Assembly: GCA_019695115.1 (NCBI GenBank)
Contig: JAIBAP010000036.1
Coordinates: 1-58,955 of the forward strand
Source: Caldilineales bacterium
GTDB lineage: Bacteria > Chloroflexota > Anaerolineae > J102
DNA length: 58,955 nt
Direction: 5' to 3'
Position 1 is the stretch's first letter. Each line of letters opens with the position of its first letter. The notes beneath the pieces were generated by a model. That model was not told the origin of the DNA, ran no database searches, and was given only the letters and a program-made list of their open reading frames with translations. Of this stretch, positions 1,262 through 56,964 are shown one piece after another. A program made the translations under genes and the position numbers.

Positions 1262-1477
1262 ATGTCTGACAACGATACTCCCCAAAGCTCTGAAAAAGAA
1301 GTCATCGTCGCCGACGAGAAATTTCAGTTCTCGTTTCGTTTGGCAATTGCTGGATTGAGTTGGGCCGTCATTCTGGGTATTGGCGCCTATGCCTGGCAGG
1401 AGAGCATCATTCTCGCCATATTGGGTGCTATCGTGGGCTTCGTCTTCGGCTATTTGAGTGGCAGATTGATCGTGTAA
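1262..1477 (+). CDS. Small two-helix membrane protein, unknown function
   Basis: A 71-residue protein. The first 20 residues are polar and acidic. Two hydrophobic helices follow (about 26-44 and 48-66) separated by a short WQES turn, and the protein ends GRLIV. A purine-rich ribosome site (AAGGTAAGGAG) sits 8-10 bases before the ATG, so the start is well supported. It lies 68 bases after the UbiA-like gene in the same direction and may be co-transcribed. The glycine-rich second helix (ILGAIVGFVFGYLSG) resembles oligomerising small membrane proteins. I do not recognise a named family. Confidence 0.65.
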   Translation: MSDNDTPQSSEKEVIVADEKFQFSFRLAIAGLSWAVILGIGAYAWQESIILAILGAIVGFVFGYLSGRLIV

Positions 1478-49696: not shown

Positions 49697-50833
49697 TTGA
49701 AACTCCACGAATACCAGGCCAAACGCATCTTCGCCCAGTACGGCGTCCCCATCCCCCGCGGCGAGGTCGCCACCTCCCCCACCCAGGCGCGGGAGATCGC
49801 CCAACGGCTGGGCAAGGCGGTCGTGATCAAATCGCAGGTGCTGGTGGGCGGCCGCGGCAAGGCGGGCGGGATCAAGGTGGCAAAAACGCCGGATGAGGCC
49901 GAAGCAAAGGCCGACGCCATCCTGGGCATGAACATCAAGGGCCTCACCGTCAAACGGGTGCTGGTGGATGAGGCCTCGGACATCCAGAAGGAAATCTACC
50001 TGGGTCTGGTCATCGACCGGGCGCGGCGCCGGCTGGTGATGATGGCCTCGAGCGAAGGCGGCGTGGACATCGAAGAAGTCGCTGCCACCCACCCCGACGC
50101 CATCAAGACCGTCACCATCGACCCCGCCCTGGGCATGAAATCCTACCAGGCCATCGGCCTCGCCTCGGCCATTGACCTGCCCCAAGAGCACTTCCGGGCC
50201 TTCACGCAGATCGCCCTGGGCCTGTACGAGGCTTTCACCCGCTCCGACGCCGAGCTGGCCGAGATCAACCCGCTGGTGATCCAGGGCGATGGCAGCGTGG
50301 TGGCCCTGGATGGCAAGATGGTGCTGGATGACAACGCCCTCTTCCGCCATCCCGACCTGGAGGAGATGCGCGACCGCGATGAGGAAGCCCCGGCCGAAGC
50401 CGAAGCCCGCGTCAACGGTCTCAGTTACGTCAAGCTGGATGGCGAGATCGGCTGCATGGTCAACGGCGCCGGGCTGGCGATGGCGACCATGGACATCGTC
50501 AAATACTACGGCGGCGAACCGGCCAACTTCCTCGACATCGGCGGCGGCGCCCGCTCGGAGAAAGTGGCTGCCGCCCTGCGCATCATCCTCAGCGACCCCA
50601 ACGTCAAGGCCGTGCTGTTCAACATCTTCGGCGGCATCACCCGCTGCGATGAAGTGGCGCGCGGCATCCTGGCGGCGCTGGAGCAGGTGCCCACCACGGT
50701 GCCGATGGTGGCCCGGCTGGTGGGAACCAACGAGGAGGAAGGCCGGGCCATCCTGGCCGAAGCCAACATGCTGACCGCCCGCACCCTGGCCGAAGCCGCC
50801 CAAAAGGCTGTGGCCGCCGCGGATAAAAGATAG
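49697..50833 (+). CDS. sucC: Succinyl-CoA synthetase beta subunit
   Basis: 378 residues starting at TTG 49,697 ([20 protein letters not shown]), fixed by ACAGGAGG six bases upstream. With SucD it converts succinyl-CoA and NDP to succinate, CoA and NTP in the TCA cycle. The ATP-grasp domain (about 1-230) has [20 protein letters not shown], and acidic metal ligands lie in [10 protein letters not shown]. The C-terminal flavodoxin-like domain has the CoA-ligase loop GGGARSEKV and [17 protein letters not shown], which contacts the phosphohistidine of SucD. Length is slightly below the usual 385-390. A long hairpin made of 7-bp units separates it from sucD. Confidence 0.95.
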
Positions 50834-50910
50834 TTATTGGGTATTGGTTATTGGTTATTGAAGTGTGCAATCACCAATAACTAATACCCAATAACTAATA
50901 ACCAATAACC
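50833..50910 (+). repeat. 23-bp hairpin built of 7-bp repeats between sucC and sucD
   Basis: The left arm (50,833-50,855, TTATTGG-type units) pairs with the right arm (50,873-50,895, CAATAAC-type units). There is one G-T wobble in 23 pairs and a 17-base loop; extra CAATAAC units run on to about 50,910. The array starts at the sucC stop and ends just before the sucD ribosome site. Confidence 0.85.
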
Positions 50911-50926
50911 AAAATCGGAGCGATTG

Positions 50927-53814: not shown

Positions 53815-53880
53815 GGAGATTGGTTATTTGGAGATTGGAGATTGGAGATTGGCGTCAATAACCAATCTCCAATCTCCAAT
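53815..53880 (-). repeat. 19-bp perfect hairpin built of 7-bp GGAGATT repeats
   Basis: ATTGGAGATTGGAGATTGG (53,834-53,852), a 9-base loop, and its exact complement (53,862-53,880), with further GGAGATT-type units on the left. It sits between two co-directional minus-strand genes, close to the start of the solute-binding gene. Confidence 0.85.
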
Positions 53881-53886
53881 TACTGA

Positions 53887-55010: not shown

Positions 55011-55379
55011 TCAGTCGTCGCCCTTGCCTGCCGTCATTCCCGCATTCGGCCCTTCGACGGCGGCGCGGATGGCGGCGGTGAGGGCCTCGGTCGGGATGGC
55101 GTCGTTGAGCTTGAGGCTGATCGTACCTTTGCTGGTCTTGATGGTCGGGCAGGCAGCCTGGAAGGCCGGGATAGGGCCCGATCCGGGGTAGACGGAGACG
55201 CCGTGCTTCCAATAGCCCAGGTGGACGCGGCCCGTCGGCAGCTTGTAGCTCGGCACGCCATACGAGAGCATGATCTCGGCCTCGGGATAGAGGCCCAGGA
55301 TCAGCGCCTGCAAGCGGTCGAAAAGCTGCCGGCGCTCGTCCGTGACGGATGCGATGTAGGATTGGACTGATTCGGTCAT
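55011..55379 (-). CDS. DUF1801 protein (YdhG/YjbR-like fold), intact copy
   Basis: 122 residues from ATG 55,379. DUF1801 landmarks: VQSYIASVTDERRQLFDRLQ, LYPEAEIMLSYGVPSYKLP, VHLGYWKHGVSVYPG and GTISLKLNDAIPTEAL. The family is small and cytoplasmic with no firm function; some members bind iron or act in oxidative stress. The first 40 codons are repeated almost exactly at 56,340-56,459. The real ancestral neighbour of this gene appears to be DUF2442 (stop at 56,465), from which it has been separated by the DUF3800 insertion. A TATACC element lies about 20 bases upstream in the inserted DNA, which may now supply its promoter. Confidence 0.8.
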   Translation of the reverse strand: MTESVQSYIASVTDERRQLFDRLQALILGLYPEAEIMLSYGVPSYKLPTGRVHLGYWKHGVSVYPGSGPIPAFQAACPTIKTSKGTISLKLNDAIPTEALTAAIRAAVEGPNAGMTAGKGDD

Positions 55380-55381
55380 TG
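55261..55381. repeat. 121-bp direct repeat, left copy
   Basis: Identical to 56,341-56,461 except for one base (C at 55,311, A at 56,391). This copy is the 5' third of the intact DUF1801 gene plus two bases. Confidence 0.95.
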
Positions 55382-55471
55382 ACACTGCCCTTCGATCTTG
55401 GTATACTGAAGTTGCCAGTGGACAAAAATCGGCTTCAGGCCGTGAGGAGGCCCCACCGCGGTGGGACAGCC

Positions 55472-56326
55472 CTATATCCCTGGCAAGACATCATCAAGGG
55501 CCGCTAATGTAAGCGGCCTTTTTTGTGTGTAGTAACGGCCATAGGGATGCTCTCGCTTGTCGTCCAAATCTTGAACCAGACTGAATTGCGGCCATAGGAA
55601 TTCGAGATAGCGATCCTCGCGGCGTTCGTAGAATCGCTGTAGCGACCAAAGGAAGTAATCCACTGCCTGTAATCCGCCGTTTTGCGGCGGCATTTGGGCC
55701 ATGACGCTCAAGGCAGCGTTGACTTGAATGCCCCATCGGCGGGCAAATCGTTCGCGTGCGAATTCCAGCGATGCTTGCAATGCAGCCGTCCGATCGTGCG
55801 CGCCGCGTTTCGAGAAATGAACCACATACGCATCGTCTTTGTGCAAGATACCTTTGAACAGCGAGCGCGTCATATAATCATATAGTTCATTCGGATGGTA
55901 GCGATAGCCCGCATCTTGCTCGCGGCGCTGAATGGCATAATCAGCAACAGCGTTCTTGTCGCGAACGACGGCCAGAAAACGAAATGCTTGTTTGCCCAAA
56001 TACGCAAAGACCTCGCGGCGTACTTCGGGAATATCGTCTTTGGCATGAAAGGCAAGGGAGGTCTTGCGCGCTTCGGGTCGCATGGACGGTACTTTCTTGA
56101 AGTAGGGATCGGCAAGTAGCTGCGCTCTGAGTGCGTCCAATTCCTGTGTGATGCGACCGGGATCAGGAACGTCCAGGACGCCAAGGATGAAATAGCGAGA
56201 GCATCCTTCTTCACCAAAACGCAGGCGGCCCTTTCGATCGAACAGGTTGCCGTCTCCCGCCTCGTCCACAAAATAGTGACGGACGCCTGACGCAGGTGCG
56301 TTGGGGCTAGCAACTTCACTATCCAT
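55472..56326 (-). CDS. DUF3800 protein (RNase H-like fold family)
   Basis: 284 residues from ATG 56,326, with AGGAAGG three to four bases upstream. It carries the DUF3800 hallmark FVDEAGDGN near the start (about 19-27), with the acidic pair presumed to be metal ligands, then FILGVLDVPDPG, SLAFHAKDD, LAVVRDKNAVADYA, the QAVDYFLWSLQRFYE helix with its conserved Asp, and the end segment YGRYYTQKRPLT. The family is thought to be a nuclease-like fold and is common near mobile and defence genes; activity is not proven. The gene lies in 959 bases of lower-GC DNA bounded by the 121-bp direct repeat. Its upstream side is a 39-codon fragment of DUF1801, so it may be expressed from the host operon's promoter. 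Confidence 0.85.
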   Translation of the reverse strand: MDSEVASPNAPASGVRHYFVDEAGDGNLFDRKGRLRFGEEGCSRYFILGVLDVPDPGRITQELDALRAQLLADPYFKKVPSMRPEARKTSLAFHAKDDIPEVRREVFAYLGKQAFRFLAVVRDKNAVADYAIQRREQDAGYRYHPNELYDYMTRSLFKGILHKDDAYVVHFSKRGAHDRTAALQASLEFARERFARRWGIQVNAALSVMAQMPPQNGGLQAVDYFLWSLQRFYERREDRYLEFLWPQFSLVQDLDDKREHPYGRYYTQKRPLTLAALDDVLPGI

Positions 56327-56339
56327 CGACCTTCCTGTT

Positions 56340-56459
56340 CTACGAGAGCATGATCTCGGCCTCGGGATAGAGGCCCAGGATCAGCGCCTGAAAGCGGTCG
56401 AAAAGCTGCCGGCGCTCGTCCGTGACGGATGCGATGTAGGATTGGACTGATTCGGTCAT
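56340..56459 (-). pseudogene. DUF1801 5' fragment created by duplication
   Basis: The reading frame starts at ATG 56,459 and copies the first 39 codons of the intact DUF1801 gene (Leu to Phe at one position). It then meets TAG (56,340-56,342) exactly at the junction. The DUF3800 ribosome site follows at once. It could be translated as a 39-residue leader peptide coupled to DUF3800. Confidence 0.85.
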
Positions 56460-56461
56460 TG
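56341..56461. repeat. 121-bp direct repeat, right copy
   Basis: Pairs with 55,261-55,381 at an offset of exactly 1,080 bases, with one mismatch. It lies five bases or fewer from the DUF2442 stop. Confidence 0.95.
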
Positions 56462-56464
56462 CTT

Positions 56465-56698
56465 CTATATCTCCAATCGCTCTGACAGAAACTCAGGCGC
56501 GAAATCCGCTCCATTCGGCCATTCGATCGTGCGGCTGGTCAAGAAGACCTGATGGAAAAGACTCACGTCGCGCAAAGGTTCGAAGACTTCGCCATAAAGC
56601 TCTGACTCCAGATCGACAACGCCCTCCGCACCGTTGTTGAACGCGAGTTTCAGTTTATAATCGGCCAGATGTTCGACATTCGTCACATGCAGGAACAT
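56465..56698 (-). CDS. DUF2442 small protein
   Basis: 77 residues. The core LKLAFNNGAEGVVDLESELY and the end WPNGADFAPEFL are diagnostic for DUF2442. Members typically pair with a DUF4160 gene, as here (eight-base gap). The pair has been suggested as toxin-antitoxin-like, but activity is not established. The stop is five bases before the duplicated DUF1801 start, indicating an original DUF4160-DUF2442-DUF1801 operon. Confidence 0.85.
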   Translation of the reverse strand: MFLHVTNVEHLADYKLKLAFNNGAEGVVDLESELYGEVFEPLRDVSLFHQVFLTSRTIEWPNGADFAPEFLSERLEI

Positions 56699-56706
56699 GT
56701 TTCACC

Positions 56707-56964
56707 TCATGGCAGGGGATTGATAGGCAACAAAGGTTGCCGACTACGTGCTCGCTCCCAATCATGGAGCAACTCGGCTTGATGTTCATCCTGCCAGGTC
56801 CAGATAAGGTTGAGCGCTCGTCGAGGCATCTTGCCGGTGACAGAGCCAGTCATAATATCCACCAAAGCCTCGTAATCCTGATACTCCGCATGAAAATGTG
56901 GCGGTTCATGTTCGTTGTAGTTCATACTTATCTTTATTCCGTAAAACATCGATATTGTTGGCAT
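56707..56964 (-). CDS. DUF4160 small protein
   Basis: 85 residues starting MPTISMFYGIKISMNYNEHE. The conserved HEPPHFHAEYQ motif and the segment RRALNLIWTWQDEHQAEL identify DUF4160. It is upstream partner of DUF2442. The composition is distinctly lower in GC than the flanking genes, in line with recent acquisition. No catalytic motif is known for the family; the His-rich motif may bind metal (inference). Confidence 0.85.
   Translation of the reverse strand: MPTISMFYGIKISMNYNEHEPPHFHAEYQDYEALVDIMTGSVTGKMPRRALNLIWTWQDEHQAELLHDWERARSRQPLLPINPLP

Follow-up and report, generated by a model that had tools for sequence, protein, structure and literature searches.

A DUF3800 gene and a convergent structured RNA between direct repeats of a DUF1801 gene start in a Caldilineales bacterium

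The direct repeat at DUF1801 and the unit between its copies

The window, that is, the whole stretch of 58,955 nucleotides analysed here, belongs to a draft assembly in 135 contigs, which we counted against the best explanation given below. On its minus strand, DUF4160, DUF2442, a truncated DUF1801 start, DUF3800 and an intact DUF1801 follow one another in this order. The features of the locus are as follows.

55011–55379, minus strand: intact DUF1801, the target gene, downstream of the unit; homologues align from residue 1
55261–55381: left repeat copy, the 5' end of the intact DUF1801 (start codon 55379–55377)
55379–55407, plus strand: sigma70-type promoter driving the RNA (TTGACA-17-TATACT, a TG preceding the −10; 11 of 12 matches)
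55382–56340: inserted 959-bp unit, RNA gene plus DUF3800; similarity to one sister unit (L156) begins at 55379
55412–55487, plus strand: structured RNA of ~76 nt, a three-way junction of P1, P2 and P3 (model R1, 91.8 bits)
55472–56326, minus strand: DUF3800 (284 aa; Pfam PF12686), with a VDEAGD motif and a predicted RNase HII-like fold
55496–55528, plus strand: intrinsic terminator for the RNA, located in the final codons of DUF3800; the hairpin is kept in many relatives
56341–56461: right repeat copy, truncated DUF1801 5' end with a TAG at the junction
56465–56698, minus strand: DUF2442, DhiA-like antitoxin, the gene before the insertion (NCBIfam antoxin_DhiA, below cut-off)
56707–56964, minus strand: DUF4160, DhiT-like toxin (NCBIfam toxin_DhiT, below cut-off)

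Self-comparison of the sequence recovered the direct repeat that a first-pass annotation had described: 55261–55381 and 56341–56461 match over 121 bp with one mismatch (99% identity), lie 1,080 bp apart and enclose 959 bp. The probability that this repeat arose by chance is negligible. It is the 5' end of DUF1801, as claimed, and covers the first 40 codons of that gene; the outer copy is indeed closed by a TAG made at the junction, and the whole gene is restored on the far side (55011–55379). DUF2442 had been placed five bases before the outer copy, where the actual gap is three bases (56465 vs. 56461). We likewise saw neither a transposase nor a terminal inverted repeat in the window unit. 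The size of the insert was also given correctly, but its 959 bases do not carry DUF3800 alone, as an RNA gene is present too. At the left junction, repeat and unit overlap by 3 bp, the TTG that closes the repeat being the first half of the conserved TTGACA box of the unit.

Neither the uninterrupted DUF2442-DUF1801 junction nor the proposed ancestral order DUF4160-DUF2442-DUF1801 was found in the relatives examined. Among 60 relatives there was no close homologue of DUF1801; homologues of 31–45% identity in the phylum do not adjoin DUF2442, and in one genome with DUF4160-DUF2442 (G011) DUF1801 does not come next. Another genome, G014, was considered as an empty site and rejected, because it has a deletion inside the unit. 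Elsewhere in the window, the extreme contig end (58829–58955) holds a 52-nt sequence repeated exactly at 75-nt spacing, and two intergenic stretches (53825–53884 and 50831–50912) hold imperfect inverted repeats of the GGAGATTGGAGATTGG and GGTTATTGGTTATTG type.

A structured RNA convergent with DUF3800

The RNA gene, which the first-pass annotation had missed, has its own promoter and terminator and lies on the strand opposite DUF3800, convergent with it, and its 3' end overlaps the DUF3800 stop codon. When the window was compared with relatives at the DNA level, the match covered DUF3800 and about 90 bp past its 3' end. In the RNA, P1 pairs GCCAG.GGA with TCCCTGGC, P2 pairs CGGC with GCCG, and P3 is an 11-bp helix. 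Promoters with at least 9 of 12 matches precede the RNA in 75% of full units vs. 0.8% of random genomic positions. Over an alignment of 101 distinct sequences, fitted to the covariance model, 93% of cells were paired and two-sided changes were seen in 16 of 23 pairs, resulting in a covariation score of 0.438 compared with 0.163 in shuffles (0/500) and at most 0.084 in slid controls. The same picture of the structure emerged from a 5-sequence MAFFT alignment that predates the model (A4). The RNA gene is conserved and covarying, has both a promoter and a terminator, and is coupled to DUF3800.

No Rfam family matched the RNA when cmscan was run on the window (E up to 5) and on the loci of 13 relatives; a Trp_leader match was rejected as its identity, being the terminator only. 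Rfam lists DUF3800-I to -XI (e.g. RF02968, DUF3800-IX, and RF02915, DUF3800-VI), which are likewise small structured RNAs beside DUF3800, and DUF3800-IX, found at another locus of this genome (L004) and in other genomes, lies 3' of DUF3800 and convergent with it, the geometry of the window unit. The window RNA nonetheless differs from the Rfam DUF3800 RNAs in sequence and structure, often persists alone, and is partnered with a longer DUF3800 subfamily (about 280 aa). Since it fits none of the Rfam DUF3800 models, it constitutes a new class of DUF3800-associated RNA, outside the listed classes. The L004 copy of DUF3800-IX (1305–1375, plus strand, G000:C49) accompanies another DUF3800 of the genome, which has four DUF3800-IX matches. 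There is no variable 5' or 3' guide segment in the window RNA, where the P3 helix alone varies, largely by compensatory changes; a guide role of the OMEGA or CRISPR type was rejected because a variable segment is missing.

With the covariance model, the RNA was detected in 39 of 396 genomes of the class to which the window belongs. An exact core pattern, run on one-genome-per-species contigs of a wider collection, gave 102 loci in at least ten phyla (Chloroflexota, Planctomycetota, Pseudomonadota, Poribacteria, Latescibacterota, Bipolaricaulota, Armatimonadota, Verrucomicrobiota, Lentisphaerota, Cyanobacteriota and Thermodesulfobacteriota). Two contigs of a viral collection also carry it, a phage collection gave no match, and a plasmid collection gave one weak, cyanobacterial match. 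There is usually one copy of this RNA per genome, and at most loci DUF3800 is directly convergent, with its stop codon near the RNA 3' end. The DUF3800 protein tree clusters mainly by phylum, with few exceptions such as L138, from Acetothermia, amid Chloroflexota rows. Four loci hold two RNA copies, tandem or close, at a spacing of about 145–234 bp (L141, L133, L090) or 2 kb (L100). On two IMG/VR contigs (L163, 1–4338; L164, 1–6406) a lone RNA with a −10-like sequence lies directly upstream of a DNA methyltransferase gene on the same strand; it is possibly a copy that a phage or mobile element uses against DUF3800 or restriction.

Within the class, the RNA adjoins all 20 DUF3800 homologues of at least 52% identity to that of the window, and model R1 detected no RNA beside three homologues of 43–50% identity. 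About 20 of the 41 RNA loci in the class are without an intact DUF3800. At loci held in common, the RNA stays where DUF3800 is gone (L040 and L142 vs. L094, L114 and L139; L144 vs. L129), and the scores of orphan RNAs are on a par with those of partnered ones (medians of 70.3 vs. 71.4 bits; p = 0.59). Several orphan RNAs are near, or convergent to, genes of other defence or toxin proteins, namely HsdR, a type III methyltransferase, a DUF1156/HmaB methylase, a GmrSD-like protein, DUF3226 and PIN domains. At L116 (3317–3403) an orphan RNA sits between hsdM and hsdR, near the HsdR stop codon, as if HsdR had replaced DUF3800. An antitoxin predicts this asymmetry, in which RNA occurs without protein and not the reverse, but the same pattern could come from a structural cofactor that is the last to disappear.

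The protein itself belongs to Pfam PF12686 (31 bits against a cut-off of 21) and matches the PADLOC model DUF3800_VII in part (E = 3e-10). In alignment A7 the VDEAGD motif is invariant at V20, D21, E22, G24 and D25, and the invariant residues of the protein include D21, E22, D25, H94, K96, E101, D223 and D255. We take the VDEAGDG stretch to resemble the DEAG motif of RNase HII. An AlphaFold2 model built on 35 homologues (pLDDT 87.5) had RNase HII as its top structural match (Foldseek E = 3e-5; Z = 10.2, rmsd 5.5 over 173 residues), followed by Argonaute PIWI domains (Z of about 7.8), and a sequence search of solved structures gave nothing credible. The resemblance to RNase HII is one of predicted fold; Pfam assigns the protein to no family but DUF3800. 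An RNase H fold has been reported for DUF3800 (PMC10910872). Full units are often adjoined by restriction-modification genes (raw counts among 93 neighbours: ResIII 8, N6_N4_Mtase 6, Methylase_S 4).

Edge repeats and movement of other units

The units nearest to that of the window (L083, L156 and L096) all lie at one locus, other than the window's; these and L089 are 77–81% identical to the window in DNA. In the comparison with L156, similarity sets in precisely at 55379, where TTGACA begins, 3 bp within the repeat. On the opposite side it stops about 57 bp inside the insert, because the first 14 codons differ. The sister units contain no DUF1801 fragment. At one intergenic site of genus g130, three genomes have the whole unit, one has the RNA alone, and most others have 33–67 bp; no target duplication was seen there. 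Units therefore come and go, with duplication or without it. Between species of one genus (G011, G014 and G015; L014, L179 and L018) the unit is 93–100% identical and the flanks mostly 82–93%, from slower change or later transfer. L031 and L033 lack the middle of DUF3800 but still have both ends of the unit, with the RNA on one side and the DUF3800 start on the other, which recalls non-autonomous elements.

For 51 units with the new RNA, the 200 bp outside the RNA promoter were compared with the 350 bp outside the DUF3800 start, in search of direct repeats that score at least 45. Such repeats flank 8 of these units, where 0.28 were expected from same-geometry placements elsewhere in those loci; resampling (20,000 rounds) reached a maximum of 2 and never attained 8. 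In units that consist of the Rfam RNA DUF3800-IX and a shorter DUF3800 (three of the proteins are DUF3800 by Pfam), edge repeats were found at 4 of 25, compared with 0 of 980 control placements. Apart from that of the window, the repeats are 28–261 bp long and 79–97% identical, and enclose 779–1,385 bp. They are mutually unrelated across loci, which argues that they derive from the target. The repeat corresponds to the beginning of an intact HsdR of 1,050 aa at L138, to that of the next open reading frame (187 aa) at L240, and to the end of the upstream one at L259. No conserved terminal motif was found inside the junctions of repeat-flanked units.

Several repeats call for caution. Those flanking L129 were rejected as dispersed elements; that of L267 is probably a dispersed element and those of L133, L141, L101 and L257 are perhaps dispersed, while that of L146 may reflect paralogous small genes. 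The repeat at L074 scored under the threshold. Flanking repeats are missing from about 83% of units, so that the repeat is a frequent signature but not an obligatory one.

Thus, when other DUF3800 loci are inspected for direct repeats, as the first-pass annotation had proposed, they are found in both sets, and in some cases they consist of the start of the next gene. Its suggestion of an insertion with long target duplication is upheld by the window repeat together with the excess of edge repeats in the two sets. The further suggestion that DUF3800 may be mobile in this way survives as a tendency of the whole family; what moves is not DUF3800 alone but DUF3800 with its RNA, and the repeat is not obligatory. 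Target duplication and the co-mobility of DUF3800 and RNA are well supported.

Proposed insertion and retention of the unit

In the explanation that we place first, with about even weight for and against it, an addictive DUF3800 nuclease/RNA module was inserted through illegitimate or homologous recombination with duplication of the target. The insert would be a small, two-gene selfish or defence module, made up of DUF3800 and a ~76-nt RNA whose transcription runs towards DUF3800. Most probably the RNA holds the nuclease in check by binding it, as an antitoxin would, and a cell that has acquired the module could then not easily lose it. Through recombination of either kind the module would have entered DUF1801 at codon 40, and the 121 bp of target duplicated in the process would have left DUF1801 whole beyond the module. 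The module has neither a transposase of its own nor conserved ends, and such insertions would often be seen because addiction retains the module and only target-sparing insertions survive. The module and the duplicated target can be read off the sequence; insertion by recombination, retention by addiction and the antitoxin-like role of the RNA are inferred.

Alternatively, the unit may be excised as a circle through its flanking repeats and integrate into other genomes when one homologous crossover takes place within the gene fragment on the circle (Campbell-type integration); of the two direct repeats, one copy of the target gene would then stem from the donor and one from the recipient. Direct repeats would yield such circles, neither conserved ends nor a transposase were found, and repeats that are long (28–261 bp), variable and often 10–20% diverged fit one donor-borne copy. 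The copies in the window differ at only 1 base in 121, however, so that donor and recipient would have been nearly identical there; the sister units carry no DUF1801 fragment, and the initial capture of a gene fragment would still require illegitimate recombination. We consider this route rather unlikely. Less likely again is that DUF3800 already stood beside DUF1801 in ordinary vertical or transferred island DNA and that 121 bp were copied later in a chance segmental duplication. The g130 unit, present or absent without duplication, would be in keeping with such a history, as would the lack of repeats at most units and of any unit-free DUF2442-DUF1801 adjacency. Against it stand the two independent sets, in both of which edge repeats exceed the same-geometry controls, and the closest sister, whose left similarity ends exactly at the junction while the sisters lie at another locus. 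The outer DUF1801 start, three bases after DUF2442 in an operon-like arrangement, also speaks against it.

We regard as the least probable explanation that DUF3800 is a mobility enzyme, an RNase H-fold nuclease with an RNA cofactor whose widely staggered cuts are filled in to give long duplications. Transposases and RNA-guided nucleases do share the RNase H fold, repeats accompany two unrelated RNA classes, and L031 and L033 retain both ends of a unit without the DUF3800 middle. Yet a conserved terminal sequence was not found inside the junctions, the RNA usually has one copy per genome, and the nearest fold is RNase HII, not a transposase. To our knowledge, the duplications made by known DDE enzymes are far shorter and less variable than these.

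As for the inserted module that we favour, several known systems resemble it in part. Restriction-modification genes are the case for which insertion with long target duplication has been described (Nobusato 2000; Furuta 2010; as cited in PMC3031569 and PMC3874152). The cases described there share with ours the long, variable target repeats, the lack of transposase and terminal repeats, and the intact target, but concern restriction-modification, whereas here a nuclease-like protein is joined to an RNA. Toxin-antitoxin systems with RNA antitoxins (types I, III and VIII) are alike in that a nuclease-like protein lies by a small RNA and is not found without it, while the RNA is found without the protein. 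Unlike in those types, the putative antitoxin of the window unit lies 3' of its partner, converges on it and has its own promoter; unlike in type III, there is no upstream repeat array. The domain, RNase H fold and defence context are shared with the candidate defence protein DUF3800_VII of PADLOC and with the DUF3800 of CRISPR types V-A2 and VI-F (PMC10910872, PMC12669027), but there is no CRISPR effector, array or TPR domain here.

DUF3800 proteins and RNAs had been catalogued without a function. New here are a widely distributed RNA class, a clear unit of protein and convergent RNA, and an asymmetry that simplifies a test of the antitoxin role. It is possible, though somewhat doubtful, that DUF3800-RNA modules with several unrelated RNA classes are a broad class of transposase-free selfish elements, each pairing an RNase HII-like toxin with its RNA antitoxin and together present in at least ten phyla, which would spread with long target duplications, often into restriction-modification operons, and whose RNA would persist as immunity to the toxin. 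The movement of the units resembles that so far described for restriction-modification genes, which points to long target duplications as a mark of addictive modules generally rather than of one enzyme.
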